Source: Desulfobulbus propionicus
GTDB lineage: Bacteria > Desulfobacterota > Desulfobulbia > Desulfobulbales > Desulfobulbaceae
Length of the DNA: 64,000 nt
Direction: 5' to 3'
Assembly (NCBI GenBank): GCA_002748735.1
Contig: PDTC01000009.1
Span: forward strand, 49,331-113,330
Shown: positions 28,029-43,877 of the stretch, piece by piece
How the letters are laid out: each line of letters opens with the position of its first letter
Position numbering within the stretch: position 1 is the stretch's first letter
Translations under genes and position numbers: made by a program
The notes under the pieces: model-generated
What the model was told of the DNA's origin: nothing
Database searches by the model: none
The model's input: only the letters and a program-made list of their open reading frames with translations

Positions 28029-28044
28029 TGGAATACAACTTGCA
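28029..28044 (+). promoter_or_regulatory. Sigma-54 (-24/-12) promoter before the TPR gene
   Basis: TGGAATACAACTTGCA keeps GG-N10-GC (28030-28031 and 28042-28043) with a consensus TTGCA at -12. The -24 element TGGAAT departs from TGGCAC at two bases. It is 40 bases before the start codon. Confidence 0.65.
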
Positions 28045-28083
28045 ATTCCTTGAACTGAACCACGCCTTATCAGAGAGACCATC

Positions 28084-30525
28084 ATGCAGCAGGCATCCCA
28101 TCACCTCTTCTTCATCGTACTTGTTCTGCTATGCACCACCCTGCCGGTCAGCGCCTCAATCGAGCTCAACCAGGTAGGCCGGATCGATGAAGAACAGCGC
28201 CTTCAACTCTTTCTGCGTTTTTCACAACTCCCCTCCAACAAAATCGTCTGCAACGGCAAACGAATCGATATCATCATGGAGGAGACCACGGCTCTGGTTG
28301 ACCTGCAGCTACCAGAGGCTGATTCCCGCCTGATTCGCATGTTCATCAAACAAGAGGCATCACACCTGGTGCTCTCTCTGTTTTTCCGTTACAAACCACA
28401 GCAATACTCCTCATCGGAAAACCAGGGGACCGCATCACTACTGGTCGATATCCTGCTTGGAAACCCGCTGTCAGCACGTTACCCCGACCTGTCTGCCTCG
28501 TTCGCCGGCATAACCGTACTGCACCGAAGCGGTACCAATTATACCAGCCCGGTTCAAGTCTCCGCCTTTGCCGCGAACTGGAAGTCGCTGTTTGAGCACT
28601 ATGAAAGCCCTCTCCAGATTACCCCACAGTTACGCCTGAGCCTGCCGCCATTTCCCCTGGCTGGTCATGCGGCCCGGCGCAAAAACCTGGAAATCGACGC
28701 CTGGCTGCCGGCTTCACTACAAGAACTTGCCGCGTCACAGCAATGGAGCCAACTTCAACTGGAATTGCGCGAGCGGCTTGCAACAGAAAAGAATCAAGAA
28801 TACAAAAAACTGCTGCTGCTCACCTATGCTGAAGTACTTGTCCGCAGTGGAGGGGTGAACGAGCCGTATCATCTCCTGCAAAAAATCATTCTCGAGTACC
28901 CGGATACCCTGCTCGCCTACCTGGGCGAATACCTTTTTCACACCCTGCAGGCGCAACATGGCGACCCCCATCAGGCAGCCTACGAAATGAACAAGCTTGA
29001 CAAACGCATGAAAGCCGCCGGGCAGAACCCTTTTCCCGCCTACAGCAACATCCTTCAGGCAGAGATGGCAATAATGACCAATAACCTGAAAAAAGCCGAA
29101 GAGTTGCTTGATGATGATACCCTTCCCTGCCATAGTCAGACCTGCCATCTGCGCAGGATGCGCCAGGCCGATCTCCTTTTTATGCGCCATGAAAGAGTCA
29201 AAGCCTTGGTCAGTTATCTGCAGCTCACCAGGGAATCATCCCTTATCGATACATATCCCCGCTCACTGGCAAACTTTGCCGCAGCCCTCTATAAACTCGA
29301 CAGTATAACAAAGGCTGTCAGCACCTATGGGCAGCTGAATCTACTACTGGCCGAAGCCGACGAACAACAGGATCTGACGCTCTATCGCCTCGCAGTCAGC
29401 CGCCTCCAGGCCGGAGAAAAACTTCGCCAGGTTGAGCCGTTGTTCATGCAGATCCGCAGCAGCTTTCCGGGAAGCGAAGGTTCTCAACGGGCCGAACTCA
29501 AGGAAACTGATCTCTTATACCTGGCGCACGCCCTAAACGAGGAGGAGGCGGCAAGGATCTACCAGCGGCTGCAAGATACCGCTGTCACCGTAGCACTACG
29601 TGCCGAGGCCATGTTGAAAAAGGCGGTTATCTCCTCTTTTCAGGGGTTACATCAACAATCCGTGGAAGAGGCCATGCTCCTGCTGCGGGAGTTCGCGAGC
29701 TCTGAGCTCAGGGTAGACGCCAAGGCGTTGATCATCCAGCAGCTGCCCAAGGTGATTACCGAACTTGTCTCAGACAAGGAGTATCTTCAGGCCCTGGTAC
29801 TGGCAAAAAAAAACCGGGAACTGTTCATCCGCGGCTGGCTGTCGCAAGACCTGCTTTATGATCTGGGCCACGCCTACCAAGCTCTTGGTTTTTACAAACG
29901 GGCCATCCGCACCTACAATTACCTGTTTGACCTCGCGAAAGGTGAGGAGCTGGAACGCATCTACCCGCTCCTTCTGACCAGCCTGTACGGGAACGAGCAG
30001 TATACCGATGTCGAAAATTACGCCGAACAATTTTTTTTCCGTTACCCAGAGAGCAAGCTCAGCGAGGAGGTCTACCTGCTCTGGCTCCAGGCCCTTGCCG
30101 CCAGCGGCAGAAACGAACGACTGGAACAGCTTCTTGCCCAAAAAAATCGTCCGGCAAACACCGCCATTGATCTGCTGGCCGCCCGCCATTGTTTTCTTGA
30201 GGAGGACTGGGAGGCAGTTATTGGCCTGCTTGACCGGGTATCGATGCAGGAACACCTCAAAGATCCGGATACGGCATACATGTTAGCTGAATCCGCTTAC
30301 CAGCAGGGTCGATTTGACCTTGCCGCAAAGATGTTCGGTGAGCTGCTGGCCGATGGTCAGCGCACCGATCAAAGCCAGTACCGGCTGGCAGGTATCGCCC
30401 TTCTCCGAGGTGACCGAGAAACAGGACGTAACCAACTGACCGAGCTCGTCAAAAAAGGAAAAGACCGCATCTGGACCCGGATGGCCCAGGAAGACCTGAA
30501 AATTGAGACCCTGAAACAACGCTGA
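28084..30525 (+). CDS. Exported TPR-repeat protein at the head of the flagellar locus
   Basis: An 813-residue protein with a signal peptide (residues 1-25, ending VSA-S). Residues about 26-110 form beta strands (IELNQVGRIDEEQRLQLFL) resembling an AMIN-type domain. From about residue 215 to the end the sequence is helical repeats of the TPR kind (for example YDLGHAYQALGFYKRAIRTY and AYMLAESAYQQGRFDLAAKMF). Such a protein commonly sits at the start of deltaproteobacterial flagellar clusters. It has its own sigma-54 promoter, so it is regulated with the motor genes. Predicted periplasmic; the AMIN-like part could touch the wall. Exact role unknown. Confidence 0.75.
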   Translation: MQQASHHLFFIVLVLLCTTLPVSASIELNQVGRIDEEQRLQLFLRFSQLPSNKIVCNGKRIDIIMEETTALVDLQLPEADSRLIRMFIKQEASHLVLSLFFRYKPQQYSSSENQGTASLLVDILLGNPLSARYPDLSASFAGITVLHRSGTNYTSPVQVSAFAANWKSLFEHYESPLQITPQLRLSLPPFPLAGHAARRKNLEIDAWLPASLQELAASQQWSQLQLELRERLATEKNQEYKKLLLLTYAEVLVRSGGVNEPYHLLQKIILEYPDTLLAYLGEYLFHTLQAQHGDPHQAAYEMNKLDKRMKAAGQNPFPAYSNILQAEMAIMTNNLKKAEELLDDDTLPCHSQTCHLRRMRQADLLFMRHERVKALVSYLQLTRESSLIDTYPRSLANFAAALYKLDSITKAVSTYGQLNLLLAEADEQQDLTLYRLAVSRLQAGEKLRQVEPLFMQIRSSFPGSEGSQRAELKETDLLYLAHALNEEEAARIYQRLQDTAVTVALRAEAMLKKAVISSFQGLHQQSVEEAMLLLREFASSELRVDAKALIIQQLPKVITELVSDKEYLQALVLAKKNRELFIRGWLSQDLLYDLGHAYQALGFYKRAIRTYNYLFDLAKGEELERIYPLLLTSLYGNEQYTDVENYAEQFFFRYPESKLSEEVYLLWLQALAASGRNERLEQLLAQKNRPANTAIDLLAARHCFLEEDWEAVIGLLDRVSMQEHLKDPDTAYMLAESAYQQGRFDLAAKMFGELLADGQRTDQSQYRLAGIALLRGDRETGRNQLTELVKKGKDRIWTRMAQEDLKIETLKQR

Positions 30526-30713
30526 TCCAGGCCCAGAGACATCCATGGATTCCCCCATCCCTTTATTCAATACCATCATGAAAAAGCTACTGCCAGGCGT
30601 CATGGACCTGCGGTTCAAGAACCCAACAGGGTATACTCATCAACCCAGGACACCGAGCTACGCGGCCCTGGCATCTGCGCCCGAAAAGATCCTGAAAAAT
30701 GGACGGCAAATGA

Positions 30714-30730
30714 TGGCGCATAATTTGCAT
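30714..30730 (+). promoter_or_regulatory. Sigma-54 (-24/-12) promoter of the fliF operon
   Basis: TGGCGCATAATTTGCAT: GG at 30715-30716 and GC at 30727-30728 with exactly ten bases between and a consensus TTGCA. It stands in front of the flgC-fliE relic, where the promoter of an intact flgB/flgC operon would be, and should now drive fliF and fliG with a leader of about 260 bases. Confidence 0.75.
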
Positions 30731-30784
30731 AAACATGGACAGGGCAGTATAGCCCCTTTTTTTCCACCACGTTCAGAGGCACCC

Positions 30785-30940
30785 ATGGATCTCTTTACCG
30801 CTTTTGACATTGCAGCCCCAGTACCCAAAGCACAGCGGCACCGGTCATGGACCAGCTTCATACCAGAGGTAAACGAGACCTCCATGAGGTGATGATTGCC
30901 TGAAAAAACGCCGACGTTTCCATACGCCTGCAAAAATGAC
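30785..30940 (+). pseudogene. flgC-fliE relic (deletion fusion)
   Basis: From ATG 30785 the frame reads MDLFTAFDIAAPVPKAQRHR, which is the N-terminus of the rod protein FlgC (family: MDLFTALDISASGLxAQRxR). It then becomes meaningless. From about 30868, in another frame, GKRDLHEVMIA appears, then a stop, then ADVSIRL (30910-30930): the C-terminal core of the rod protein FliE (GKxDLHEVMIAMEKADVSFRL). So a deletion joined the start of flgC to the end of fliE, followed by stops and shifts. Neither product can be made. It occupies the canonical place directly before fliF. The identity of both pieces is clear from the motifs; exact edges are approximate. Confidence 0.8.
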
Positions 30941-31000
30941 CTGGTCACCGTTACCGTCAACACTTTTTATATCCTGAACCATTAATACTGATACGTGCCC

Positions 31001-32575
31001 ATGGCGAAACACTCCTTTGCTGAACCAACGACCTCCTCACAGAACGGCCTGGTGATCCTGGCCAATCGGATACGCAACTGGTCCCTTGGCCGCCAACTTG
31101 CCCTGGCCGCAGTTCTGCTCCTGACCATCGGCCTGTTCTCTTGTATTATCATGCAGGGACGAACAGCGGATTATCAGCTGCTTTACGGAGATCTCTCCGA
31201 GCCAGATATGACATCGACACTGCAATGGCTGAAGGGCAAAAACATTCCCTATCGGCTCACCGACAACGGCCACAGCGTCATGATTCCCGCCAACAATGTC
31301 GACAATGCCCGCCTCGGTCTGGCTGCAGTGGGACTGCCCCGGGGAGGAGATGTCGGCTTTGAGATCTTTGACGAGCAGTCCTTCTCCCCCACCGACTTCA
31401 TGCAGAAGATCAACTATGGCAGGGCGCTCCAAGGTGAGCTGGCGCGGACCATCGCTTCGCTGGGACCTGTAGAATCAGCCCGTGTTCATCTCGATCTCCC
31501 TGAAAATCAAGAAAAAAATGCAACAGCATCTGTGATTCTCAAGTTGACGGCAGGACGACGGCTGAGACAGTCCCAGATGGAGGGGATACTTCACCTGGTC
31601 TCCAGCTCCATCGGTGAATTGACCCCGGAAAATGTCACGGTCATTGACCAGAACGGTAATGTCCTCTCTGCCCAGAAAGGAGCGTATCTGTCTGGCAGTC
31701 TCTCTCCAGACATTTTTGAATACCAGCTCCAGATGGAACGCAGCCTGGAACATCGAGCCCAGGCGCTTCTGGATAAGGCCATTGGCCCAAAAAAATCGAT
31801 GGTACGGGTCACTGCAATGCTCGACTTTACCAGGACCGAAAAAACAGAAGAGCTCTTCGATCCTGAAGAACCGGTCATTCGCTCTGAACAGATAAGCGAG
31901 GAAAAATCCGCCACAGAGGTTGCCAGTGCAGTTGCCGATGTCCAGGCCAATCCCCAGGAAAACACCACCTCTGCCAGACCGCCATCAAACCGATCCCAGC
32001 GAAAGACCAACTACGAAATCTCCAAGGTGGTCTCTCACACGGTCAGCCCTGTGGGAACGATCCAACGACTTTCCGTCTCGGTACTGGTCACGGACAAGAG
32101 TATCCCGGCCAAGGATGACACCCCTGCCTCCACCGAGCCCAGGAGTGAAAAAGAGCTGTTGGCCCTTGAGACGATGATTGCCTCAGCTCTTGGCCTGGAT
32201 AAGACCAGAGGCGACAGAATCGAGGTTACCTCCATGCCGTTTGAGGAACCTCAGCCGGAAAAAGAACTGACCGATCTGAGCCCGTCACCGATCTATCGGT
32301 TCATGCCCCTGATCAAGTATGGACTCCTCTTTTTCGCAGGGCTCCTTGTCTACTTCCTGTTGGTACGCCCCCTGATCAGGACACTGCGTGACGATGTCAC
32401 CCAGCACTTCAAGACCGTCCAAGAAATAGAGGAAGAGGCCCGGCAAAAGGCGCAGGTCGAAAAAGAAGTTCAGGCCATGTTCCGGGACCCGGTTCAGAGA
32501 GTGCTCCACCGAGTTGAAAAAAATCCGCTTGTCACCGCGTATGTCCTCAAGGGCTGGCTCCACGAAAAAAGCTGA
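31001..32575 (+). CDS. fliF: Flagellar MS-ring protein FliF
   Basis: A 524-residue inner-membrane ring protein, slightly short for the family. The first membrane helix is at about residues 32-52 and the second at about 445-465. Between lie the ring-building domains with DYQLLYGDLSEPD, GLPRGGDVGFEIFD, NYGRALQGELARTI and the R-V-H-L-x-L-P motif (ARVHLDLPENQ). The C-terminal FliG-binding helix is present (NPLVTAYVLKGWLHE). The start is uncertain (GTG 30995 or ATG 31001) because the upstream fliE has decayed and no ribosome site is clear. FliF normally builds around the FliPQR-FlhA export gate, which this locus lacks. fliG follows. Confidence 0.95.
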   Translation: MAKHSFAEPTTSSQNGLVILANRIRNWSLGRQLALAAVLLLTIGLFSCIIMQGRTADYQLLYGDLSEPDMTSTLQWLKGKNIPYRLTDNGHSVMIPANNVDNARLGLAAVGLPRGGDVGFEIFDEQSFSPTDFMQKINYGRALQGELARTIASLGPVESARVHLDLPENQEKNATASVILKLTAGRRLRQSQMEGILHLVSSSIGELTPENVTVIDQNGNVLSAQKGAYLSGSLSPDIFEYQLQMERSLEHRAQALLDKAIGPKKSMVRVTAMLDFTRTEKTEELFDPEEPVIRSEQISEEKSATEVASAVADVQANPQENTTSARPPSNRSQRKTNYEISKVVSHTVSPVGTIQRLSVSVLVTDKSIPAKDDTPASTEPRSEKELLALETMIASALGLDKTRGDRIEVTSMPFEEPQPEKELTDLSPSPIYRFMPLIKYGLLFFAGLLVYFLLVRPLIRTLRDDVTQHFKTVQEIEEEARQKAQVEKEVQAMFRDPVQRVLHRVEKNPLVTAYVLKGWLHEKS

Positions 32576-32651
32576 TCTCTCCCTGCTAAAAAATCCTGTT
32601 CTGGGAGGTAGCAAGAGAGGGTATCCAAGACAAAAAGGAATATACAGGTAC

Positions 32652-33665
32652 ATGGCAACAATCGAAAAACTCAATGGTACCAATAAGGCAGCCATCCTCC
32701 TGATGTGCCTTGGTGAAAACATGGCGTCACGGGTAATGCAAGAACTCAGTGACGAGGAAGTCTTCAAGATTACCCATGCCATGTCCACCATTGAACATAT
32801 CCCGGAAGAGACCAAACAAAGGGTGCTGGAAGACTTTGAGCTGGCCATGGAGAATCAGGCCGGGCTTGTTATCCAGGGCAAGGACTTTGCGCGTAAGGTG
32901 ATCAGCGCCGCAGGAGATGAAAAGCGGGTAGCCGATCTCATGCACCAGTTTATCTCAGGTGCTGAGGGAAAACCGCTGGAGACGATCTCCAGGATGCAGC
33001 CGGCCATGGTTGCCGATCTGCTGGAGCGTGAACATCCGCAAACCATGGCCCTGATCCTTTCAACCCAGTCTTCCGAGCATTCCAGTGCCATCATTGCCAA
33101 TCTGCCTGAGGAAAAACGCGCCGACGTGGTCTACCGTATCGCCACCATCGACAAGGTATCACCGGCAGTCATCAGCCGTATCGAAGAGGCGATCAGGGCC
33201 GAGGTCGGTAGGATTCCGGTAAGCGCGGAACAACCGAGGATTGGCGGCATTGCCAAGGTTGTCGAAATCTTCGACAGCATGGAAAACAATATGGATGCAG
33301 ATATCCTGGAAGACCTGGAAGAGGTGAACCCGGACATGGCCGAAGAGATCCGTAAGCAGATGTTCACCTTTGAAGATCTCTGCACTCTCGACGGCCGCTC
33401 CCTGCAGATGATTCTGCGAGAGATAAACAATGACTCCCTGGCCATGGCCCTGAAAACCGCTTCCGACGAACTCAAAGGCATACTCTTCGACAATATGTCA
33501 GCTCGAGCTGCCGCTATGATCAAGGATGATCTTGAGGCCCTGGGACCAGTACGGCTCTCTGAGGTCGAGGCCATGCAGCAGACCATCATCAAGATTGCCA
33601 TGCGACTGGAGGGAGAAGGCAAACTGGTACTGGGTAAGGATGATGGAAACGATGAACTCGTCTAG
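32652..33665 (+). CDS. fliG: Flagellar rotor/switch protein FliG
   Basis: A 337-residue protein of normal length. The N-domain (FliF binding) spans residues 1-110, the middle domain carries the FliM-binding EHPQT motif (LEREHPQTMALIL) near residue 123, and the C-domain holds the torque helix: DELKGILFDNMSAR then KDDLEALGPVRLSEVE, around residues 272-305. The charged residues that meet MotA in E. coli FliG (Lys264, Arg281, Asp288, Asp289, Arg297) all have counterparts. So the torque interface is conserved even though no filament genes remain nearby. ATG 32652 is chosen by homology; the open frame runs upstream inside fliF. Confidence 0.96.
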   Translation: MATIEKLNGTNKAAILLMCLGENMASRVMQELSDEEVFKITHAMSTIEHIPEETKQRVLEDFELAMENQAGLVIQGKDFARKVISAAGDEKRVADLMHQFISGAEGKPLETISRMQPAMVADLLEREHPQTMALILSTQSSEHSSAIIANLPEEKRADVVYRIATIDKVSPAVISRIEEAIRAEVGRIPVSAEQPRIGGIAKVVEIFDSMENNMDADILEDLEEVNPDMAEEIRKQMFTFEDLCTLDGRSLQMILREINNDSLAMALKTASDELKGILFDNMSARAAAMIKDDLEALGPVRLSEVEAMQQTIIKIAMRLEGEGKLVLGKDDGNDELV

Positions 33666-34017
33666 GGGGGTGAAACAGGACACATCCTTTATTTTCCTCC
33701 AGCTGATTCATCGAGAAGTTGCCGCTGTCTCCCAGGGAAAGCAGACAAGTGAAGACTTACCGTCCACAACAGTTTTCTCTTTGACGCACAGCAAGTTTTT
33801 TTGGGGGGGACGGACAATAATGGGTGCGAAAATCTCAGCAAGTACCGCCGCAAAAATACCCAAAGAAGAACTACAGCGCCCTGCAAGAGGACGTATCAAT
33901 TGAAGATCTCCTCGAACCAGGGTAGTTCCAGAGGGAAACAATGGGCCCCATACTCGATGCGGTTGCTGTCCTCTTCCACCAAAACTCAATACTCCTAGCT
34001 TATTCAAGTTACTCTCT
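33666..34017. other. Gap where fliH, fliI and fliJ are expected
   Basis: In flagellar clusters of this order, fliH, fliI and fliJ (about 2.5 kb) follow fliG. Here only 352 bases remain. A 76-codon frame from GTG 33671 to 33901 exists but I recognise no FliH, FliI or FliJ motif in it. No Walker A of FliI is present. The region is best read as a deletion scar. Confidence 0.5.
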
Positions 34018-34530
34018 ATGAAAACACCAGTCTTCGCGCTGCTCGCTGCCTTGTCGCTCACCGTCTTTGCTTCCCTGGCTGCTTTTTCACAGGAAGTACT
34101 CCCATCATCAGACACAAAAATGGAATACAGCTCTGTGGAAGAGCGTCGCCTTCTGACATCACTGGAGAAAGAGCGCGCCGACCTCATCCGGCAGCGGCAG
34201 AAGATTGAAGAACGACAACAGGAGCTCAAGAGAATTGAGGCCGAGATTGACAAGAAGCTTGATGCGTTGAATGACCTGCGGCAGAAGCTGGAAAAAATGC
34301 TCGCAGAAAAAGACGAGCAGGAACTGAAAAGGATTAAGGAACTCAGCAAGATGTATGAAAAAATGGACGCTGCAAAAGCCGCCCCCATTTTCACAACCCT
34401 GGAGCAGGAACTGGCCATCGCCATTCTCGAACACATGAAGGCCAAGACAGCAGCCGGCATCCTCGCCAACCTGGACAGGGACCAGGCAGCTGCCCTGACC
34501 ACAGCCTTTTCAACCTTGGACAGCGACTGA
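34018..34530 (+). CDS. MotE-family flagellar motor chaperone
   Basis: A 170-residue protein: an N-terminal signal or anchor helix (residues 5-25), a long charged coiled coil at about 40-115, and a C-terminal MgtE-N-like helical unit (ELAIAILEHMKAKTAAGILANLDRDQAAAL). This is the layout of MotE, a periplasmic partner of MotC and the stator in several bacteria, usually encoded between fliJ and fliK. It is intact, whereas both of its normal neighbours are gone. It should act at the stator rather than in export. Confidence 0.8.
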   Translation: MKTPVFALLAALSLTVFASLAAFSQEVLPSSDTKMEYSSVEERRLLTSLEKERADLIRQRQKIEERQQELKRIEAEIDKKLDALNDLRQKLEKMLAEKDEQELKRIKELSKMYEKMDAAKAAPIFTTLEQELAIAILEHMKAKTAAGILANLDRDQAAALTTAFSTLDSD

Positions 34531-34726
34531 TGAATGCAATGAGTCATATTCTTTTCCACAGACATGCAAACTGCGAACAAGATGCTCAACGGTGCCATTG
34601 CCCTCCAACAGCAGTAACTGTCAAAATATTGCCACAAAAAAGCAGGCCCCAGCTACCCATGATTCTTTGTACCTGCTCGAGGGACACTTCCCTGAAAAAT
34701 CCTCCTGTTGCCAAAAGACTAATCTC
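34531..34726. other. Gap where fliK, flgD and flgE are expected
   Basis: About 200 bases separate motE from the motA promoter. fliK, flgD and flgE normally fill this place. Apart from a possible flgE tail (34561-34617) I recognise nothing. Confidence 0.4.
34561..34617 (+). pseudogene. Possible 3' remnant of flgE
   Basis: The frame reads DMQTANKMLNGAIALQQQ and then TAA. Hook and distal-rod proteins end in TTADEMLQxxINLKR followed directly by stop. The match is T-A-N/D-x-M-L plus the -AL/-NL and stop at the same distance. It lies where flgE belongs. The evidence is thin (18 residues). Confidence 0.3.
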
Positions 34727-34742
34727 TGGCATTCAACTTGCA
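34727..34742 (+). promoter_or_regulatory. Sigma-54 (-24/-12) promoter of motA
   Basis: TGGCATTCAACTTGCA: near-consensus -24 (TGGCAT), GG-N10-GC exact (34728-34729, 34740-34741) and consensus TTGCA. It is about 90 bases upstream of the motA start. Confidence 0.75.
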
Positions 34743-34833
34743 AACTTGAGTTTGCCCCGGCTTTTCTGTACACTGCTCCTGGAATGGTAGTCTTGGGTAA
34801 CCAGGGGTGCGCAGCCGAAACCCAGGAAAACAA

Positions 34834-35601
34834 GTGGATATCGCAACTATCATAGGAATATTTGCAGCTTTTGGCCTGATGGTGATGGCCATCCTTGAGG
34901 GTGGCGGCCTCGGCATGTTCATCAACGTACCGTCAATGCTCATCGTTTTTGGTGGTACCGCCGGAGTTGCCCTCATCAACTTTCCCCTGACAGACGTGCT
35001 CAGCGCAGTCAAGGTGGCCAAAAAGACTGTTCTCATCAAGGAGAGCAACACCAACGAATTGATTGCTCAGCTGATGGAGTTTGCCAACAAGGCGAGGAAA
35101 GAAGGTATTCTCTCTCTGCAAAACGCCATTGACTCTGTGGAGGATGATTTTCTGATCAAGGCCCTGCAGATGGCTGTGGATGGTCAGGAACCTGAAGACC
35201 TCAAGACCATGCTCAACACTGAAATCGATCATATCCAGGCGCGTCATGTTGCCGGCGCCGAGATCTTCCTTTCACTAGGCGCCATCTCTCCGGCAATGGG
35301 CATGGTCGGAACCTTGATTGGCCTGGTGCAGATGCTGCAAAATATGAATAATCCTGCCTCGATCGGACCAGCCATGGCTGTGGCCTTGCTCACCACCTTC
35401 TACGGTGCGGTCCTGGCAAATATCCTGTTTAATCCCATGGCTGGTAAACTGAAAACCCGTAGCAAGACCGAGCTCTTGCAAAAAACTGTGATCGTCGAGG
35501 GAATGGAATCCATTCTCTCCGGCGAGAATCCTCGGGTAATGGAGCAGCGACTACATGCCTTCATAGCCCCCAAGAACCGAGAATCCGTGTTTAACAGCTA
35601 G
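34834..35601 (+). CDS. motA: Flagellar stator protein MotA
   Basis: A 255-residue stator subunit with four membrane helices. The N-terminus MDIATIIGIFAAFGLMV is typical once the GTG at 34834 is taken as start (AGGA seven bases upstream); the frame is open for nine more codons. The large cytoplasmic loop (about residues 70-150) carries the FliG-facing charged residues. Both channel prolines are present, in ISPAMGMVGTLIGL and ANILFNPMAG. With MotB it forms the ion channel that turns the rotor. It has its own sigma-54 promoter and is followed after seven bases by motB. Confidence 0.95.
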   Translation: MDIATIIGIFAAFGLMVMAILEGGGLGMFINVPSMLIVFGGTAGVALINFPLTDVLSAVKVAKKTVLIKESNTNELIAQLMEFANKARKEGILSLQNAIDSVEDDFLIKALQMAVDGQEPEDLKTMLNTEIDHIQARHVAGAEIFLSLGAISPAMGMVGTLIGLVQMLQNMNNPASIGPAMAVALLTTFYGAVLANILFNPMAGKLKTRSKTELLQKTVIVEGMESILSGENPRVMEQRLHAFIAPKNRESVFNS

Positions 35602-35608
35602 GTGGATA

Positions 35609-36349
35609 ATGGCAAGAAAAGAACAGGCATGCCCAGCTGGTGCCCCCATGTGGATGTTAACCTTTTCCGACCTGGTCATCCTTCTGCTGACCTTTTTTGT
35701 CCTACTCCTCTCCATGGCAAACATGGATCCGATCCGCTTCCGTCAGGCCAACAACTCAATCAAAAACGCCTTTGGCTGGCGATCAGAATCGTCTGCCCCG
35801 GAATTCTCTCTGCCGGTACTTTCTTCCCCACCGAAAACCATATTTCAGCCTATCCCCATAGACAACGGCACGATCCAGTATTTCAAACGTGTCGAGACCG
35901 AGCTGAAACAAGTGAAAGTCAACGACACCGTGGAAGCAGTAAAAAAAGACAACGACTCCATTGTGTTGCGCATCAACGATTCGGTGCTGTTCGACAAGGG
36001 CCAGGTTACACTCAACCCCTCATCATATCCGCTGTTGCGCAAGGTGGCAGATATCGTCCGCCCCCTCCCCATGAATATGCGTATCGAAGGACACACCGAC
36101 AACATGCCAGTGACCAGCAGCCGGACCAACTGGGATATTTCAGTTGCCAGGGCAGTAGCGGTAATGCGTTTCTACAAGCGGAACCAGCTTTTCCAGCTCG
36201 ACCGCATGTGCTCTGTGGGCTATGGCGAGTCACGACCATTGGCTCCCAACACCACACCCGAAGGACAACGGCAGAACAGGAGGGTAGAGTTTGTTCTACG
36301 CAGTAACACGTCACCCGGTTTGGGCATACGGAGCCAGATCCCCTTTTAA
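35609..36349 (+). CDS. motB: Flagellar stator protein MotB
   Basis: A 246-residue stator subunit. The single membrane helix (MLTFSDLVILLLTFFVLLLS) carries the ion-binding Asp21, followed by a plug and linker and a C-terminal OmpA-type peptidoglycan-binding domain with EGHTDNMPV and NWDISVARAVAV. All parts needed for ion conduction and wall anchoring are present. An overlapping frame (35602-36306) is a shadow. Whether H+ or Na+ drives it cannot be told with certainty from this sequence. Confidence 0.95.
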   Translation: MARKEQACPAGAPMWMLTFSDLVILLLTFFVLLLSMANMDPIRFRQANNSIKNAFGWRSESSAPEFSLPVLSSPPKTIFQPIPIDNGTIQYFKRVETELKQVKVNDTVEAVKKDNDSIVLRINDSVLFDKGQVTLNPSSYPLLRKVADIVRPLPMNMRIEGHTDNMPVTSSRTNWDISVARAVAVMRFYKRNQLFQLDRMCSVGYGESRPLAPNTTPEGQRQNRRVEFVLRSNTSPGLGIRSQIPF

Positions 36350-36381
36350 GGCCTGCAGAGCGTCAATAACGAGAGAAAAAC

Positions 36382-36891
36382 ATGACAACAACGACAGACA
36401 GAACAGGAGAACAGGAGGGCGGCAAAAAAACATTGCTGATTATCATCATTACCGTGATCCTGGTTGCAGTGATTGGTGGCACAACGGCCTTCTATGTCCT
36501 GATCATGAAAAAACCACTGACCAAAGAGAAAGGGCAGGTCAATAAACAGGTTCAGGTCATACAAAACCCGCCAGTCGACAATACCACTGTTGGGCCAATG
36601 GTCAACATTGAGCAGCTCGTTGTCAATATCATCAGCCAGGATACACCACACTATGTCAAGGCGGCCTTATCTCTGGAGATGAACAACGAGCAGGTGGTTG
36701 AAGAGGCCAGCAAACGTATGCCTCAAATCCGAGACGCTGTTCTCCTTTTACTCGGCAACAAGACCTTCGAAGAACTCCAAGATATTCAGGGGAAAAAACA
36801 GGTCAAAGCCGAAGTGAAAAGTAAAATTAACTCCTTTTTAACAACAGGGCAGGTGAAAAACATCTATCTCACAGACTTTGTTGTCCAGTAA
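36382..36891 (+). CDS. fliL: Flagellar basal-body-associated protein FliL
   Basis: A 169-residue protein with one membrane helix (about residues 17-42) and a periplasmic stomatin-like domain (VNIEQLVVNII, YVKAALSLEM, MPQIRDAVLLLLGNKTFEEL). FliL rings surround MotAB units and raise torque. It is intact and lies in normal order between motB and fliM, six bases before fliM. Confidence 0.93.
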   Translation: MTTTTDRTGEQEGGKKTLLIIIITVILVAVIGGTTAFYVLIMKKPLTKEKGQVNKQVQVIQNPPVDNTTVGPMVNIEQLVVNIISQDTPHYVKAALSLEMNNEQVVEEASKRMPQIRDAVLLLLGNKTFEELQDIQGKKQVKAEVKSKINSFLTTGQVKNIYLTDFVVQ

Positions 36892-36897
36892 ATCGGT

Positions 36898-37899
36898 ATG
36901 GAACCTCTCCTCACCAAAGAAGAGATCAACGAACTGCTGTCTGCTATCGAAGACGGCCATATCACGACGGATCAAAATGCTGATGCTTGCATTACGGGCA
37001 GCCATCAGCTTTCCTTCGTTAATATTGACCTGTTTCGTACCGTTGAACCGGTTCGAGAAGGAGCTGAGGAACGAATTCCCAACGTTGACCTGCTCCTCGA
37101 TACCTTTGCCCGCATCTTCAGCATCACCCTTACCAAGCAGCTGCAGCGTACCTTCGTGGTCGAACGGGAAGAACTGACCATCACCTCCTTTGAGGAAAGC
37201 CTGAAAAGCCTCAACAATCAGGGGGCAGCCGGCGTCTTCAGTATGGATCCGCTCAAACATAGCTGTCTCTTCCATGTTGATCCACCCCTCAGCTTTACTC
37301 TGCTGGAGATCATGCTGGGGGCGCCACCTGTAAGCGACTCTCTGTCGCCCAACCGAGCCCTAACCTTGATTGAGATGTCTGTATTACAGCAGACCATGCT
37401 CTCCCTCGGCGAAGACCTGCAACGCACCTTCAAGCAGGTGAGGGAAATCCAGGTAACGCTGCTGAAGGTAGAAAACAACTTTCGCCTGCTCAATATCGTA
37501 GAGGGCGACCACGAGGTTCTGATGACCGTATTCAACCTCAAGGTCGGCGGCCAGCAGGTCGGTCATATGCGGTTCATTATTCCCGCTCTCACCCTGGAAC
37601 CCCTCAAAAAGACCTTGCGGGAGATTGTCACCATAGCCCATACGGAGAACAACTGGAGTCGGCAAATGGCCGAGGAAGCCTTGGAAATGGACACCCTGGT
37701 AATTGCCCGCTCCGGTCTCCTGCAAATGTCGGTCCGGCAAATCCTTGACCTGCGAGAGGGCGACATCGTCAACCTGGGGTATGCCCCCCAGGGACCTCTC
37801 ACCATCATGGTTGAGGATCAACCCAAGTTCACCGGCATTCCTGGAGAACGCAACGGAAAAAAAACTGTACACATCAACGCCTTAAAGCGTAAACCGTGA
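36898..37899 (+). CDS. fliM: Flagellar motor switch protein FliM
   Basis: A 333-residue C-ring protein of normal length. The N-terminal CheY-P binding peptide is present (LLTKEEINELLSAI, family LSQEEIDALL). The CheC-like middle domain (about 45-235) and the SpoA/FliN-like C-domain (about 255-325: ALEMDTLVIARSGLLQMSVR, LREGDIVNL) are complete. So the switch can in principle still receive chemotaxis signals, although no cheY is in the window. Confidence 0.95.
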   Translation: MEPLLTKEEINELLSAIEDGHITTDQNADACITGSHQLSFVNIDLFRTVEPVREGAEERIPNVDLLLDTFARIFSITLTKQLQRTFVVEREELTITSFEESLKSLNNQGAAGVFSMDPLKHSCLFHVDPPLSFTLLEIMLGAPPVSDSLSPNRALTLIEMSVLQQTMLSLGEDLQRTFKQVREIQVTLLKVENNFRLLNIVEGDHEVLMTVFNLKVGGQQVGHMRFIIPALTLEPLKKTLREIVTIAHTENNWSRQMAEEALEMDTLVIARSGLLQMSVRQILDLREGDIVNLGYAPQGPLTIMVEDQPKFTGIPGERNGKKTVHINALKRKP

Positions 37900-37908
37900 G
37901 GATACCCG

Positions 37909-38280
37909 ATGGAAACTACTGATACCCCATCTGCAGCAGACAAACGCAATCCTGAAGATACCACTGAGCCTCTCACCGATGAGCCCTCATCATCTCAAAC
38001 AAGTCCCCAGGGCCACCTGCCCCAGGAACTCGAGTTTCTGTTCGATGTTCCCCTCCAGGTCTCTGTGGAGGTGGGCAGGGCTCGTATCCTCCTCCGGGAT
38101 CTACTCCAGATGGGCGAAGGGTCTATCATCGAATTGGACAAGCTTGCCGGAGAACCGCTGGACCTGTATGTCAATTCACGGCTCATTGCCCGAGGCGAGG
38201 CCGTCAAGGTCGGTGACAAATTTGCCATCAAGCTCACGGAAGTGGTCAGTCAATCAGACCGCCTCAAAAAACTGGGATAA
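37909..38280 (+). CDS. fliN: Flagellar motor switch protein FliN
   Basis: A 123-residue protein with a disordered acidic N-terminus (1-40) and a SpoA domain (FLFDVPLQVSVEVGRARILL, LDKLAGEPLDLYVNSRLIARGE) typical of FliN. It completes the C-ring. In Salmonella FliN also docks FliH of the export ATPase; fliH is missing from this locus. Ten bases after fliM. Confidence 0.95.
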   Translation: METTDTPSAADKRNPEDTTEPLTDEPSSSQTSPQGHLPQELEFLFDVPLQVSVEVGRARILLRDLLQMGEGSIIELDKLAGEPLDLYVNSRLIARGEAVKVGDKFAIKLTEVVSQSDRLKKLG

Positions 38281-38646
38281 GTATTCGCCCAGCCATGGAC
38301 ATCCAGTTCAATGTTTTTCTAGGCAGCTTTCCCTTCTTCAGTACGGGCATAGCCGTCATCAGTTTGACCACTCCCCCACAGCTCTCGTTCTCTTTTAGTC
38401 AAGAATTTGACCTGGCCCAGAAAAACTTTTTCCTCCTCCTGTAAATCTTCAACGCCTCGGTATCCTCACTTCATATCAACTAGCTGCTCCAAACCTTCTC
38501 GAACGGTAGTAATTACGTATGGCGCTGATCACATCCATCCTCAAGATCTTCCTTATCCCTTGAGATACAACACTACAGGAAAAGGTGACATTCTGCTGAC
38601 CGGTAGATACCCATCCTCTTGGTTCTGGGAGTTTCTCGAAAATACA
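38281..38646. other. Degraded stretch where fliO, fliP, fliQ and fliR are expected
   Basis: About 365 bases stand in for roughly 2.5 kb of fliO-fliP-fliQ-fliR. One short frame (38295-38444, 49 codons, MDIQFNVFLGSFPFF...) begins like the N-terminus of FliR, which often starts MDxxFN and continues with a hydrophobic stretch; this is a weak match. The rest (38445-38646) is not recognisable. Confidence 0.35.
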
Positions 38647-39058
38647 GCAGCCCTGGATTACCCCCTTGTCCCCTTGGAAATAGAGAAAAAAATGAAGATG
38701 ACCAAACAGCAGGTGATCCACGTCAAAAATCCGAGCGCTCCAGTAAAAGATCAAACATCCACCGACAACAGCTACTACAGCCCAATAAATTGATATAATT
38801 AATAATTTATATTGCCACAGTAACTGTCAAAGATGAGACTCGATCAATGGTTGCGCCAATAGTGCTCGCCAAGAGCGAGAAACTGATCGTCAGGGTTCTC
38901 CTTGAAATTACCAGAAAACAGGTAGTCCTCTGGCAGAAGGCCCTCCAATGGCAAGATTATTGCAGAACAAGATAGCGATGGAGCCGAGTATCCCGGAAGA
39001 ACTGCCCAAGGCTGTCGCTGAAATTCTGGCCTCTCTTTATACCATCAAAGGAACCTGA
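38647..39058 (+). pseudogene. flhB relic, several frameshifts and deletions
   Basis: Four ordered pieces of the export switch protein FlhB can be read. AALDY...EIEKKMKMTKQQV (38647-38720) is the join of the last membrane helix and the linker. SKIRALQ then a stop (about 38728-38750, shifted frame) matches VKSRIRALQ. MVAPIVLAKSEKLIV (about 38848-38900) matches the KxMxAPxVLAKG segment of the autocleaving domain. MARLLQNKIA...SIPEELPKAVAEIL and the final TIKGT plus stop (38948-39058) is the C-terminus. The NPTH cleavage motif and all upstream membrane helices are gone. The pieces lie in three frames, so no functional FlhB is encoded. Confidence 0.85.
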
Positions 39059-39075
39059 CCGATACACAGCACCTG

Positions 39076-39487
39076 ATGAAAACCGTACGAGCACCGTCAT
39101 GCTTTGCCATACCACCACGTTGTCGCCTGTTTGTGTGTAGTGACACTGATCTCAACCGCAGCATGCTTGACAAAGCAGAGGCACGACAGCAGCATGAAGA
39201 AATCGCCTATGAGGCAAACTTCCATAGTGCCATGAATGGAGCTTCCAGCTTTATCGGTGGTGAGACCATAGCCGCCAGCGTCCAAAAGATCTTAGAGCAA
39301 CTGGGGCAAGGTATCAGTACCTATCCCTGGCAGCAGCCGACGCTCCTGGTCGTTCCGCAAATCAGGCCGCATAGCCGGCAGCTGACGGAATGCTATTACC
39401 CGCAATCTCGCTGTGTTTTCCCACAACGAGATTGTCACCAACCTGAAAATTACCTCTGTCGGCATGGTGAACGTCAATGCAAGTTAA
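39076..39487 (+). pseudogene. flhA relic with large internal deletion
   Basis: Two parts of the export-gate protein FlhA are joined. DTDLNRSMLDKAEARQQHEE and NFHSAMNGASSFIGGETIA (about 39142-39275) correspond to the conserved FHIPEP-region loop DADLNxGxxDxxEAR...[21 protein letters not shown]. Then KILEQLGQG and LLVVPQIRPHSRQLTECYYP (about 39283-39400) are the C-terminal domain. After a frameshift, NEIVTNLKITSVGMVNVNAS and TAA (39426-39487) are the C-terminus. About 400 residues between are missing. The ancestral stop overlaps the flhF start (39477), so the operon junction is preserved although the gene is dead. Confidence 0.88.
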
Positions 39488-40706
39488 AGTCTTTGAAGCA
39501 AAAGACATGCGAAGTGGCTTGAAACTGGTGAAAGAAGCACTGGGGCCGGAGGCCCTGATTCTTTCCAGCAGAACAGTCCGCAAGGGTCGTTTTGGTATTG
39601 GTGGACCTCCGAGTATAGAGATCACCGCTGCCTCGGACACTACCCAGGGAGTGACAATCGACGAGGTACCTGTTTCCGAGCGGCAGCTGCTCTACTCCAA
39701 ACCCATTCGTCAGGTCGAACAGGATATCGCCCCGGTACGTAAAGAACGCACGCTAAACAGCAGTGATAGGGCCGTGGCATCCTCTACGGCTGACACCGAG
39801 ATCAACGAGCTGCGCAACCTGATACAGGGGCTGTCCGAAAAGCTGCACAACCTGGAACATGCTCCACCAGCAGGGCTGCAACCTCGGAGTGCTCAGCTGG
39901 CAACCGGTACATACGGGCCAGTCACCACCTTTCTCCTCAGTCGCGGGGTCAACCAGGAGGCGGCGCGGATGGTGGAGAGGTTCACCGGTGACCTTTTCAG
40001 TGACGACACGGTGGACACGCAGCACCGGTTGAACGACCTGCTCACCAGGACCATGGCCAGACTTTTTTCGGTAAAACCGCTCCTGCAGGAAAAGGTCCGA
40101 CAACAACAAAGGCTCTGCTGTGTCGGCCCCACCGGCGCGGGAAAGACCACCACCATTGCCAAGCTGGCAGCCAACTACCTCAGCCGTTTTGCGGGTAAAG
40201 TCGTGTTATTAACCATCGACACCTATCGCATCGCTGCCGTGGAGCAGCTCAAGGTGTACGGGGAAATCATGCGTATTCCTGTGGAGGTGATCATCAGCCC
40301 CGACGAGCTCGCCCTAGCCCTGGAAAAATATCATGACTACGACCTGATTCTCATCGACACCGCCGGACGGAGCCCGAGAAATGACTTGGAAATCGAAGAG
40401 ATGGTTCGTTTCCTCCCCCCGGCGTTGAACATTGAGCATCACCTGCTGCTCCCTGCTCCGGCGCGTGAAAATGAACTGGAAGCGACCATCCGCACTTTCT
40501 CGGTACTCCCGCTGTCCAGCTTTATCTTCACCAAAATCGATGAATGCAGTCAGCTAGGTGTCCTCTTGAATATCCATTTCCGTACCGACATTCCCATCTC
40601 CTTTCTCACCGATGGGCAACGGGTACCCGAGGATATCATTGCTCCGGATCCGCAGCAGCTTGCCGACTTCATCATCAACGATCACAGGACGGTAACCCAT
40701 GGCTGA
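39477..40706 (+). CDS. flhF: Flagellar placement GTPase FlhF
   Basis: A 409-residue SRP-type GTPase. The N-terminus MQVKVFEAKDMRSGLKLVKEALGP is typical of FlhF, then a variable linker and N-domain, then the G-domain with CVGPTGAGKTTTIAKLAANYL-type P-loop (VGPTGAGKTT), DTYRIAAVEQL, LIDTAGRS and FTKIDE. FlhF marks the cell pole (or other sites) for the first FliF ring. It is intact although the preceding flhA, which overlaps its start by 11 bases, is a relic. Confidence 0.95.
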   Translation: MQVKVFEAKDMRSGLKLVKEALGPEALILSSRTVRKGRFGIGGPPSIEITAASDTTQGVTIDEVPVSERQLLYSKPIRQVEQDIAPVRKERTLNSSDRAVASSTADTEINELRNLIQGLSEKLHNLEHAPPAGLQPRSAQLATGTYGPVTTFLLSRGVNQEAARMVERFTGDLFSDDTVDTQHRLNDLLTRTMARLFSVKPLLQEKVRQQQRLCCVGPTGAGKTTTIAKLAANYLSRFAGKVVLLTIDTYRIAAVEQLKVYGEIMRIPVEVIISPDELALALEKYHDYDLILIDTAGRSPRNDLEIEEMVRFLPPALNIEHHLLLPAPARENELEATIRTFSVLPLSSFIFTKIDECSQLGVLLNIHFRTDIPISFLTDGQRVPEDIIAPDPQQLADFIINDHRTVTHG

Positions 40707-41604
40707 CCCGCTCAATCGTCCTCTGGATCAGGCCGGAACCCTGCGGGCCATGAATGCCTCTCAGCAGACCGAGGAAGCCGAACATGCTGCCCGGGTCTTC
40801 TCTATCACCAGCGGTAAGGGGGGTGTGGGAAAGACAGCGGTGGTCGCCAACCTCGCCGTCCTCCTGGCCCACATGGGCAAACGAGTGCTCATCCTCGACG
40901 CAGACCTCGGCCTGGCAAATATTGATGTGGTTTTCGGCCTCACGCCAACCTACAACCTCAATCATTTTTTTTCCGGAGATCAAAGCCTGCAATCGATTCT
41001 TCTTGAGGGCCCCCACGGCATCAGGATTCTCCCGGCAGGCTCTGGCATACAACGCTTTACTCGCCTCAACGCCGAACAGAAGCTGCGGCTCCTCGAAGCC
41101 CTCGACCAGATGCACAACGACTTTGATATTGTCCTCATCGATACCGAAGCCGGCATCTCGGAAAACGTCACCTATTTCAATACCGCAGCCCAGGAAATCC
41201 TAGTGGTCACCACTCCGGAACCCACGGCGATCACCGATGCCTACGCCCTCATGAAACTGCTGGCCAATCAGTACCATGAAAAGCATTTCAATCTCATCGT
41301 CAACTTTATCAAAACCGAGGAAGAGGCGCTGGATGTCTACCGGAAACTGACCATGGTGGCCAATCGTTATCTGGATATCTCCATGGATTATCTGGGTTCC
41401 ATCCCCAGGGATAAATCCATGGTAGAGGCGATTCGTCAACAGCAGGTCATGGTGGAACTCTATCCGGAATCAAGGATCAGCCAGGCCTTCGCTGCCCTGG
41501 CAACAGCGGTCCTCCAGGAACCAGAGCGGCTGGAACCCAAAGGGTCCCTCCAGTTTTTCTGGAAACGTCTGCTGAACCTGGCACCAGACAAGCTAAAAGC
41601 GTAA
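40699..41604 (+). CDS. flhG: MinD-like flagellar number regulator FlhG
   Basis: A 301-residue MinD/ParA-type ATPase. Residues 10-16 (DQAGTLR) are the FlhF-activating motif. The deviant Walker A is SGKGGVGKTAV, switch regions are LDADLGLANIDVVFG and LIDTEAG, and a C-terminal amphipathic segment (FWKRLLNLAP) could bind the membrane. FlhG limits the number of FlhF-marked motors and also touches FliM/FliN. It overlaps flhF by eight bases. Confidence 0.94.
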   Translation: MADPLNRPLDQAGTLRAMNASQQTEEAEHAARVFSITSGKGGVGKTAVVANLAVLLAHMGKRVLILDADLGLANIDVVFGLTPTYNLNHFFSGDQSLQSILLEGPHGIRILPAGSGIQRFTRLNAEQKLRLLEALDQMHNDFDIVLIDTEAGISENVTYFNTAAQEILVVTTPEPTAITDAYALMKLLANQYHEKHFNLIVNFIKTEEEALDVYRKLTMVANRYLDISMDYLGSIPRDKSMVEAIRQQQVMVELYPESRISQAFAALATAVLQEPERLEPKGSLQFFWKRLLNLAPDKLKA

Positions 41605-41742
41605 CAGACCAACCCGGTTACAGCGCAGAGGAAAAACTGTTTGAACCATGTCTCCAGGCCCGATTCCACCGCTTGACCACCGTTCCCCGCTGATACGGGA
41701 ACCCATGCCCCTGGTCGAATTGACCAAAACCAGGAGAACACC

Positions 41743-42231
41743 ATGTCTGTCATCCTCTGCCTGATCCTCTTACCCCTACTGGCCATTACTGCCTTGCTTT
41801 TGACAGTATCCATCTACCGTGACCAGCGGACACGTCTGCGGGAACGCACCCGGATACATATCATGCAGGCCAAGATCCAACAGGCTCTCTCCGGTACACC
41901 GGCAGTAAAATTTACCGATTCCCTGGCCCGAACGCCAGTAACCACTGGCCTGCAATTGCCCAGTTTCTCTCACCAGATGAGGTGGCATCGGCAACTTCCG
42001 GAAAAGTACCGCATCCTGCAGAAACTGGCTGACCAGGGAATGGGAGAGCTGGAGATTGCCGAAACACTGGACATGTCTCGAGTTGAGGCTGGTCAGCTAC
42101 TAAGCCTGGCCGCAGTCGGCAGCACAAGACAACGGTGTAGCCACTCTGGTGTTCAAAGCAATCTGCGTAAAAAATCAGCCGAATGTGCCAATATATATCA
42201 GAGAGGATATTTGCCTTTGTCCCCGGATTAA
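41743..42231 (+). CDS. Small membrane protein with helix-turn-helix-like segment
   Basis: A 162-residue protein with one N-terminal membrane helix (residues 3-23) and a basic cytoplasmic part. Residues about 88-125 (KYRILQKLADQGMGELEIAE then MSRVEAGQLLSLA) form the helical motif seen in small proteins (DUF2802 or DUF6115 type) encoded at the end of flagellar and chemotaxis operons. The last 35 residues are rich in Cys, Ser and basic residues and lower in similarity. Function unknown; the position after flhG suggests a link to motor placement. Confidence 0.65.
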   Translation: MSVILCLILLPLLAITALLLTVSIYRDQRTRLRERTRIHIMQAKIQQALSGTPAVKFTDSLARTPVTTGLQLPSFSHQMRWHRQLPEKYRILQKLADQGMGELEIAETLDMSRVEAGQLLSLAAVGSTRQRCSHSGVQSNLRKKSAECANIYQRGYLPLSPD

Positions 42232-42472: not shown

Positions 42473-43153
42473 TTGTTGAAAATTAACGATCTCTTCAACC
42501 GGATAAAGAACGGCAAGGCCGTTCGAGTTGCCTTGGCAGTACTGGACAGCAATGAAAAAGAGCGGTATAATTGCGTGCTTAACACTCTGGAGTTACCCTC
42601 TTTTTCCTTGACGTTCCCCACAGGCGCCCTTCCCGTTGAACGTATCGATCGTAACCGCAGCTGTGTGGTGCTCATTGACTTGGCTGGCCAGTCCATAAGC
42701 CTGACGGCCACCATAACAACCATTCCCAACCGGCAGACGATGCTGTTGACCGGCCAGGAAGTCGTAGACCATGAACAGCTCCGCGATTTTTTTCGCGTCG
42801 ATGTGGTCACTCCGGTAAAAGCCACCCCTCTGCCGCTGACCAACGGTGATGATAACTCCTGCTGTTTGACTGGTGAAACCGTCGATTTCAGCGGCAATGG
42901 TCTGCTCGCCTGCTTTAATACCTCCATGGAAACGGACAGCCTGTTTCAGCTAGAGGTAAAACTGCCACCTCATGGCTTGGATGTAGCACAGATGATCGGG
43001 CGCGTCATCCGGTCTATTGCTGTCAAAGATAACCGCTACCAGGTTGCCTTCTATTTTGAGGAAATCGCCCCGGAAACCCGCGACAAAATCATGGCATGCT
43101 GCTTCAAGATTCAGCGAAATCACCTGCGCATGCGCGTCCGGGTAAGACAGTGA
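42473..43153 (+). CDS. YcgR-like PilZ-domain flagellar brake protein
   Basis: A 226-residue protein with an N-terminal YcgR-like beta domain (about 10-95) and a C-terminal PilZ domain: RDFFRVD (RxxxR) near residue 105 and VDFSGNGLLACFN (DxSxxG) near residue 143. Such proteins bind c-di-GMP and slow the flagellar motor by touching MotA or FliG/FliM. No ATG is available; TTG 42473 or 42476 is the start. Presence next to the rotor genes means c-di-GMP control of the retained motor is likely. Confidence 0.8.
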   Translation: MLKINDLFNRIKNGKAVRVALAVLDSNEKERYNCVLNTLELPSFSLTFPTGALPVERIDRNRSCVVLIDLAGQSISLTATITTIPNRQTMLLTGQEVVDHEQLRDFFRVDVVTPVKATPLPLTNGDDNSCCLTGETVDFSGNGLLACFNTSMETDSLFQLEVKLPPHGLDVAQMIGRVIRSIAVKDNRYQVAFYFEEIAPETRDKIMACCFKIQRNHLRMRVRVRQ

Positions 43154-43775: not shown

Positions 43776-43804
43776 TTCATATTCATTTTTTTCTAGCGTA
43801 TACT
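43776..43804 (+). promoter_or_regulatory. Candidate sigma-70 promoter of the mglB-mglA operon
   Basis: TTCATA (43776-43781), a 17-base spacer and TATACT (43799-43804), about 70 bases before the roadblock gene. Confidence 0.4.
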
Positions 43805-43877
43805 CAGAGTAGTCGAAAGTATTTTTGTAACAAATTCAACGTATAGTTATTACTTCCATCTGTGGACGAGGTGCCCA

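Follow-up and report, generated by a model that had tools for sequence, protein, structure and literature searches.

A flagellar locus of Desulfobulbus propionicus that keeps rotor, stator and placement genes and has lost export and axial genes: genomic assessment of a putative filament-less motor

The flagellar locus considered here lies in a stretch of 64,000 nucleotides (hereafter the window) from Desulfobulbus propionicus (GenBank assembly GCA_002748735.1, contig PDTC01000009.1, positions 49,331 to 113,330 of the forward strand), and it retains open genes for the rotor, stator and placement of the flagellar motor, interspersed with scars and relics of the genes for the export gate, rod and hook. 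The window belongs to contig C3 (215.7 kb) of a genome, G000, which amounts to 1.81 Mb in 30 contigs, has a completeness of 85.6% and a contamination of 0.13%, and is the sole member of its genus among the 73 genomes of its family that were compared. Its closest named relatives (L001-L008) are Desulfobulbaceae and related metagenome-assembled genomes (MAGs), with FliG identities of 60-71%. As the reference for the ancestral cluster, the loci of six relatives were used (G004, G005, G013, G015, G024 and G044; 33-39 kb each).

Kept genes, scars and relics

In the six relatives, the cluster opens with TPR, flgB, flgC, fliE, fliF, fliG, fliH, fliI, fliJ, motE, fliK, flgD, flgE, motA and motB, continues with fliL, fliM, fliN, fliO, fliP, fliQ, fliR, flhB, flhA, flhF, flhG and fliA, and closes, after fliA, with a conserved gene and flgF, flgG, flgA, flgH, flgI and flgJ. 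All genes from flgB to flgJ are present in this one order in 6/6 relatives, some of whose gene names were assigned by position, and the TPR gene is present in 5/6, the stretch from the sixth beginning downstream of it. Of this set of 34, 12 genes are retained in the window and 22 are lost. Eleven open genes (TPR, fliF, fliG, motE, motA, motB, fliL, fliM, fliN, flhF and flhG) run in the ancestral order on the plus strand from 28084 to 41604, and the locus reads as follows.

28084..30525, +: TPR protein, first gene of the cluster, with an N-terminal hydrophobic helix (TPR match, order in relatives)
30526..30994, +: scar of flgB-flgC-fliE, 469 bp (about 1.5 kb in G004), from alignment to the relatives' loci
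30785-30844, +: flgC relic within the flgB-flgC-fliE scar
30826-30927, +: fliE relic with a stop, within the same scar
30995..32575, +: fliF, MS ring (YscJ_FliF and FliF_C domains, two transmembrane (TM) helices)
32637..33665, +: fliG, C ring, with N, M and C domains and torque charges (domain matches, residue check)
33666..34017, +: scar of fliH-fliI-fliJ, 352 bp (2.8 kb in G004), with weak end fragments only of fliH and fliJ
34018..34530, +: motE-like gene, N-terminal hydrophobic helix (place, identity; homologue beside the FliF-FliG fusion of genome G444, described below)
34531..34806, +: scar of fliK-flgD-flgE, 276 bp (about 4.1 kb in G004), no protein relic
34807..35601, +: motA, stator ring (longest open reading frame from 34807; homologues suggest a start at 34834)
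35609..36349, +: motB, stator, with Asp21 and an OmpA-type domain (domain match, residue check)
36382..36891, +: fliL, stator-associated (domain match)
36898..37899, +: fliM, C ring, with an N-terminal CheY-binding-type motif (domain match, residue check)
37909..38280, +: fliN, C ring, conserved core and divergent N-terminus (domain match)
38281..39476, +: scar of fliO-P-Q-R-flhB-flhA, 1196 bp (5.7 kb in G004), with flhB and flhA relics
38685-38927 (with a stop) and 38927-39055, +: flhB relics within that scar
39142-39279, 39283-39402 and 39404-39484, +: flhA relics, three pieces, from the same scar
39477..40706, +: flhF, placement GTPase (domain match)
40699..41604, +: flhG, MinD-type placement ATPase (MinD/ParA match, identity to relatives)
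41605..41742, +: scar of fliA, 138 bp, where an N-terminal fliA relic matches 41645-41755
41743..42231, +: conserved gene that follows fliA in the relatives, with one N-terminal hydrophobic helix and no Pfam match (order, identity)

The ten named genes from fliF to flhG, which an initial annotation made from the sequence had called intact, are all open and in ancestral order. Expected Pfam/NCBIfam domains were found in the named kept genes, MotE and FlhG excepted; MotE, with an MgtE_N-type match only, is named by its place and its 51-61% identity to the relatives, and FlhG, which falls in the MinD/ParA families, by its place and an identity of 74-81%. The functional residues listed in that annotation are also kept, i.e. 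the FliG torque charges, MotB Asp21, two MotA prolines and the N-terminal motif of FliM, and the FlhG motif reads DQAGTLR; MotA Arg90 is kept as well. Position 98 of MotA is occupied by Gln in the window, as it is in the six relatives, and by Glu in Escherichia coli. When the TPR protein was compared by sequence with solved structures, it gave 12 weak matches, mostly to repeat proteins.

Clear relics are those of flgC, fliE, flhB, flhA and fliA. Scars stand at all four gaps that had been named beforehand; however, that inventory of missing genes had overlooked flgB, fliA and the flgF-G-A-H-I-J block, which is present in the six relatives' clusters and is also among the genes lost from the window. 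FlgB, FlgD, FlgE, FlgF, FlgH and FlgK, looked for in the window only, are not intact there. Across G000, FliP had no match and FlhA matched only its relic in situ, which also holds for an injectisome export gate when sought through the FliP and FlhA superfamilies. A combined query with FliI, FliQ, FliR, FlhB, FlgC, FlgG, FlgI and FlgL returned four matches in G000, none of them an intact flagellar gene (the FlhB relic and three ATPases, of which two probably belong to the ATP synthase operon, as read here, and one is probably Rho), and the same query recovered the full set in both controls, G004 and G005. FlgL had no match in G000, FlgB, FlgE, FlgH and flagellin having had no queries of their own, and in both controls the FlgL query found FlgL plus more distant matches that were taken for flagellins. 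The genome-wide search that had been proposed for an export and axial set found, for the proteins queried and in a genome 85.6% complete, none beyond the relics, in favour of the initial annotation.

That this organism nevertheless has a complete flagellum, its export and axial genes either lying in the 14% of the genome left unassembled or having been supplanted by another system, is very unlikely. The genome is only 85.6% complete, and fragmentation can hide genes, as in G103, the one genome of the family in which FlhA was found and FliF was not. However, the decayed export and axial copies sit in place, FliA is a relic too, FliF itself lacks the gate loop (found in 37/37 other sequences that are complete in that part) as well as the collar motif, and no FlgL-type match was obtained where both controls gave FlgL and presumed flagellins. 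An artefact of metagenome assembly, for which an apparent chimera in the public MAG L014 offers a precedent, is highly improbable. A single misjoin could not produce decaying in-register relics and aligned promoters in six or more regions, and the window lies on a contig of 215.7 kb.

Selection, promoters and the remodelling of FliF

The ten named genes contain no stop in 2874 codons, whereas simulated random change yields a mean of 13 stops when 5% of sites are altered and of 37 at 15%. Where the relatives share an invariant column, the eleven kept genes of the window depart from it in 235/1702 cases (13.8%) and the relics in 93/223 (42%). Selection was gauged not as dN/dS but as a relative rate, i.e. 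the divergence of the window divided by that between G004 and G005, and 15 control genes were available, being 22 open reading frames with values for G004 and G005 minus seven dropped by hand as overlapping or antisense. The median relative rate is 1.26 for the controls, 1.31 for the 11 kept genes and 4.45 for the relics, a figure that includes one poorly aligned flhB piece and becomes about 4.4 without it. MotA (0.98, the least accelerated of the kept genes), FlhF (1.03), MotE (1.08) and FlhG (1.17) are not accelerated, and FliF, FliG, FliM, FliN and FliL evolve mildly faster than the controls (1.41-1.94; p = 0.0015); for all kept genes together against the controls, p = 0.27. By these rates, the kept stator and placement genes are under constraint as strict as that on the controls, the rotor shows some change, and some relaxation or re-adaptation of the rotor subunits and FliL is real. 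The check for relaxed selection that the initial annotation had suggested comes out in its favour, as the kept genes are not neutral by their lack of stops and their distance from the relics, even if the rotor and FliL are mildly accelerated. Differences from G015 by codon position (0.27/0.19/0.53 in kept genes, 0.32/0.24/0.57 in relics) separated the two groups little and were not relied on.

The same data bear on a recent and incomplete decay, in which swimming was lost lately, chance deletions came first, and the remaining genes survive for lack of time. The relics are still readable, the rotor genes and FliL are somewhat accelerated, and loss of the whole flagellum is common in the family, in which 33/73 genomes lack a FliF match. 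Yet the relics have broken three times the share of invariant sites (42% against 14%), and the kept genes are free of stops. MotA, FlhF and FlhG are not accelerated, none of the deletion regions, of which there are at least six, has touched the motor genes or their promoters, and relatives without FliF are mostly without FliM too. We therefore regard such a decay as unlikely, even if it is the strongest of the alternatives.

The promoters in question resemble those of sigma-54 and were scored against the sigma-54 consensus. They are listed here with a candidate regulator.

28029..28044, +: sigma-54-like site, 2 mismatches, 55 nt before the TPR gene, weak on its own
30714..30729, +: sigma-54-like promoter, 1 mismatch, 281 nt before fliF, in the flgB-flgC-fliE scar
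34727..34742, +: sigma-54-like promoter, 1 mismatch, 107 nt before the likely motA start, in the fliK-flgD-flgE scar
38949..38964, +: sigma-54-like promoter, 528 nt before flhF, inside the flhB relic
24240..25316, +: sigma-54-dependent activator, AAA+ and Fis-type helix-turn-helix (Pfam Sigma54_activat)

The whole window holds four sites with at most one mismatch, three of which lie within the scars ahead of fliF, motA and flhF (p = 1.4e-5). Counterparts occur ahead of flgC-fliE-fliF in 4/6 relatives, ahead of motA in 4/6 and inside flhB in 6/6; those of fliF and motA were not seen in G044 and G013 at that threshold. Across the window and all six relatives, the flhB site is identical at 16/16 bases, although the flanking parts of the dead flhB are only 47-61% identical. 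When up to 2 mismatches are allowed, the window shows no excess (26 sites against a shuffle mean of 37), and weight was placed only on the sites with at most one mismatch and on their match to the relatives. The activator at 24240..25316, which probably regulates the retained promoters, is 51% identical to the activator beside the G444 FliF-FliG fusion.

FliF was examined at 168 columns whose conservation reaches 94% or more among 35 sequences from relatives, and the FliF of the window violates 20 of them, with 12 of the 20 falling in the RBM2 loop and the collar. The (K/R)RLF-type loop of RBM2 is deleted, E. coli being among the 37 other sequences that have it, and 8/26 columns are violated in the beta-collar, including its GG[VI]PG motif. 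Elsewhere, RBM3b shows 1/24 violations, and TM2 with the FliG-binding end 0/13. Gate loop and collar together give 12/30 against 8/138 in the rest of the protein (p = 6e-6, for regions defined post hoc), and the collar alone against the rest of FliF gives p = 0.004. According to structural papers, in the passages that concern these contacts, the export gate sits in the RBM2 ring (PMC8270960), the inner surface of RBM2 contacts FliQ and FliP (PMC11481574), and the rod is bound by collar loops that start at residues 309-311 of the FliF studied (PMC11528121). Because PGGVPG begins at residue 306 of E. coli FliF, the collar motif may be equated with the rod-binding loops. FliF therefore seems to be relaxed at the gate and rod surfaces whose partners are lost, and not at the rotor-building ones. 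In a tree of FliF, the window sequence falls beside its family without a settled placement, on a long end branch (0.74).

Distribution of the pattern and parallel lineages

Among the 73 genomes of the family, FliF was found in 40 and FlhA in 39, and, besides G000, FliF occurred without FlhA only in G097 (56% complete) and G038 (a partial match in a genome with 6% contamination). In genera g3, g10, g12, g13 and g14 of this family (f1), FlhA was not found, nor was FliF except for one partial match; because several genera show neither FlhA nor, nearly always, FliF, loss of the whole flagellum is frequent around G000. In a sample of 395 genomes from the phylum, FliM occurred in 240 and FlhA in 249, and comparison of the two lists by eye left four genomes with FliM and no full FlhA, i.e. 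G000, G218, G444 and G479. G218 was rejected as evidence for a motor-only genome, as its FliM sits on a 6.3-kb contig.

G444 is 97% complete and belongs to another family of the phylum, whose 11 other FliM-bearing genomes in the sample all have FlhA. Its motA, two motB-type genes, fliM and fliN are grouped together (L112:8781-12544, +), and a second contig carries a sigma-54 activator, a TPR protein, a FliF-FliG fusion (L111:9984-11642, -) and a MotE-like protein. The fusion has 552 residues and joins a FliF fragment to the M and C domains of FliG; in its FliF part, two hydrophobic helices surround RBM3, and there is no RBM1-2, no PF01514 and a shortened collar. The torque charges are kept, and sigma-54-like sites stand directly before the fusion and motA (1 mismatch each) and before the TPR gene (2 mismatches). 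FlhA and FliP had no match in G444, and its TPR protein no significant match to that of the window. The third genome, G479, is 100% complete and carries, one after another, a fliG that lacks the N domain, fliM, fliN and flhG (L105:3411-6778, +); no FliF, MotA (stator) or export gate was found there, and Asp288/289 of FliG are changed to Lys. Torque charges are thus kept in the window and in G444, with a stator, and changed in G479, where none is detectable.

These cases raise the idea of a recurrent class of rodless rotary motors, in which separate lineages of the phylum would independently have stripped the flagellum down to an ion-driven rotor and stator, the ring working, or sensing load, inside the envelope. 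The window would be an early stage, with FliF eroded mainly at its gate and rod contacts, and G444 a late one, with FliF joined to FliG and stripped of its gate-housing domains and of most of its collar. We consider so wide a class about as likely as not.

In a narrower set of 96 nearer relatives, FliM occurred without FliP in G049 (88% complete, a partial match) and G089 (83% complete), and FliP without FliM in G086. A frame in the public Nitrospiraceae MAG L014 (L014:3743-5101) was discarded as a FliG without an N domain, as it reads phosphofructokinase running into FliG and is most likely an assembly chimera of the two.

The putative motor, its neighbourhood and known systems

Loss of the genes for shaft, propeller and export pump, with rotor, stator and switches under selection, suggests that the motor is kept for another job. 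From the genomic evidence, we put at about three in four the probability that G000 maintains a torque-generating machine of MS ring, C ring and stator with neither rod nor filament; the relics in place, selection, the promoters, the erosion of FliF and the case of G444 all support the filament-less motor first proposed for the locus. For the assembly, rotation, location and output of the motor, we infer the following. The MS ring (FliF), the C ring (FliG, FliM and FliN) and the stator (MotA and MotB, with FliL, MotE and the TPR protein) would form one ion-driven rotary machine, its genes transcribed from sigma-54 promoters and its site set by FlhF and FlhG, that no longer includes an export gate, rod, hook, bushing rings or filament. 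Driven by ions passing through MotA/MotB, the C ring and the attached MS ring would turn in the inner membrane, and without a rod the torque would remain within the envelope.

Several points weigh against this interpretation. Torque without a rod has no known route outward, which is its weak point. Evidence of conservation since the loss comes from a single genome, with no congener in the comparison, and 14.4% of that genome is missing. The 13.8% of invariant columns violated by the window tops the value of each of the six relatives (the highest being G005, 133/1600, 8.3%), and the acceleration of FliF, FliG, FliM, FliN and FliL counts on the same side. The violation rate of FliF is matched by the distant L008 (22/178), and that of L016, in which a frameshift splits fliF, is higher. 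The parallel with G444 extends to the export gate, as sought there through FlhA and FliP.

The surroundings of the locus may hint at a surface-related role. Upstream, on the minus strand, lies

25964..27772, -: CheA-like kinase with a weak Hpt domain, HATPase and an MshE-type cyclic di-GMP (c-di-GMP)-binding motif (domain matches)

in which no CheW domain was detected and whose homologue adjoins the TPR gene in several relatives; it may have a role in the motor. Directly downstream (window 42476-44964) are genes for a PilZ protein, a Roadblock protein and a Ras-type protein, the latter two being MglB-like and MglA-like as judged by their domains and gene order; none of the three was found in the six relatives' flagellar loci. 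Elsewhere in G000, one methyl-accepting chemotaxis protein (MCP) and three CheW-domain proteins form a single cluster (C10:162748-169931, L106), which also encodes a hybrid CheA of 1135 residues (several Hpt domains, CheW, receiver) and a receiver-DUF4388 protein, and which would be of the type IV pilus class. The MCP count of 1 compares with 12-14 in the three flagellated relatives tested, and PilT/PilB-type ATPases are present. Given this pilus-type chemosensory, c-di-GMP, PilZ and Mgl-like context, a surface-related role is the most natural guess for the motor, and its output is most likely load sensing, or an inner-membrane drive that feeds a gliding or pilus system.

The same neighbourhood would also suit a static polar platform for type IV pili or signalling, built from the C ring, MS ring and FlhF/FlhG, for which rotation would be irrelevant. 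FlhF and FlhG are well conserved, the Mgl-like and PilZ genes and the kinase with its c-di-GMP motif adjoin the locus, and G000 has the pilus-type ATPases and chemosensory cluster. However, the MotA/MotB stator is kept, MotA is the least accelerated of the kept genes, and the channel and torque residues are intact, whereas the torque aspartates of FliG have gone in G479, where no stator was found. This platform is improbable, somewhat more so than recent decay.

The putative rotary motor without a rod can be set against several known systems. The basal body and motor of the six relatives have the same rotor, stator and placement genes in the same order as the window, with sigma-54-like sites at corresponding places in 4 to 6 of 6 loci; unlike them, the window has no export gate, ATPase complex, rod, hook or sigma-28, and its FliF is altered at gate and rod contacts. 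Partial flagella without swimming are also described, in the portions of the papers concerned, for Buchnera, with clusters of basal-body and export genes (PMC8109811), and for the non-flagellated Lysobacter enzymogenes, which retains a functional flagellar export system, fliG, fliM, motA and motB being absent from 15/15 Lysobacter species searched (PMC9927559). Those cases are the mirror image of the window, where the motor is kept and export is lost. At least one of FliG, FliM and FliN was found in 11% of non-motile species in a survey that raises an alternative function (PMC12199754); in its relevant passages, that survey presents no particular locus, tests no genes for selection and mentions neither retained promoters nor a remodelled FliF, and 'Desulfo' is absent from its main text. 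Engineered full FliF-FliG fusions assemble rings, by the parts of the reports that treat them (PMC11481574; PMC6079021), and have a domain logic like that of the natural G444 fusion, which differs from them in lacking RBM1-2, most of the collar and FliG_N before FliG_M. Literature searches, through the titles and abstract openings of open-licence papers, turned up no locus like that of the window. The case offers natural mutants in which the FliF regions that serve gate and rod can be told apart from the regions that the rotor itself requires, and a setting in which to learn what an ion-driven rotor achieves when it has no shaft.

The gliding motor of Myxococcus xanthus is known as AglRQS, and features of the Agl-Glt system include an extra MotA/TolQ-type protein, AglR, and the Glt envelope complex. 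As described in the relevant part of one account, this gliding uses a MotA/MotB-type ion channel without a flagellum, and the machinery travels along the cell (PMC9120999). The Myxococcus motor drives no flagellar basal body, whereas the window keeps the flagellar FliF, FliG, FliM and FliN. No extra AglR-type protein was found in G000, which has two MotA_ExbB proteins only, namely the MotA of the window and one on contig C27 that adjoins tol-like genes.

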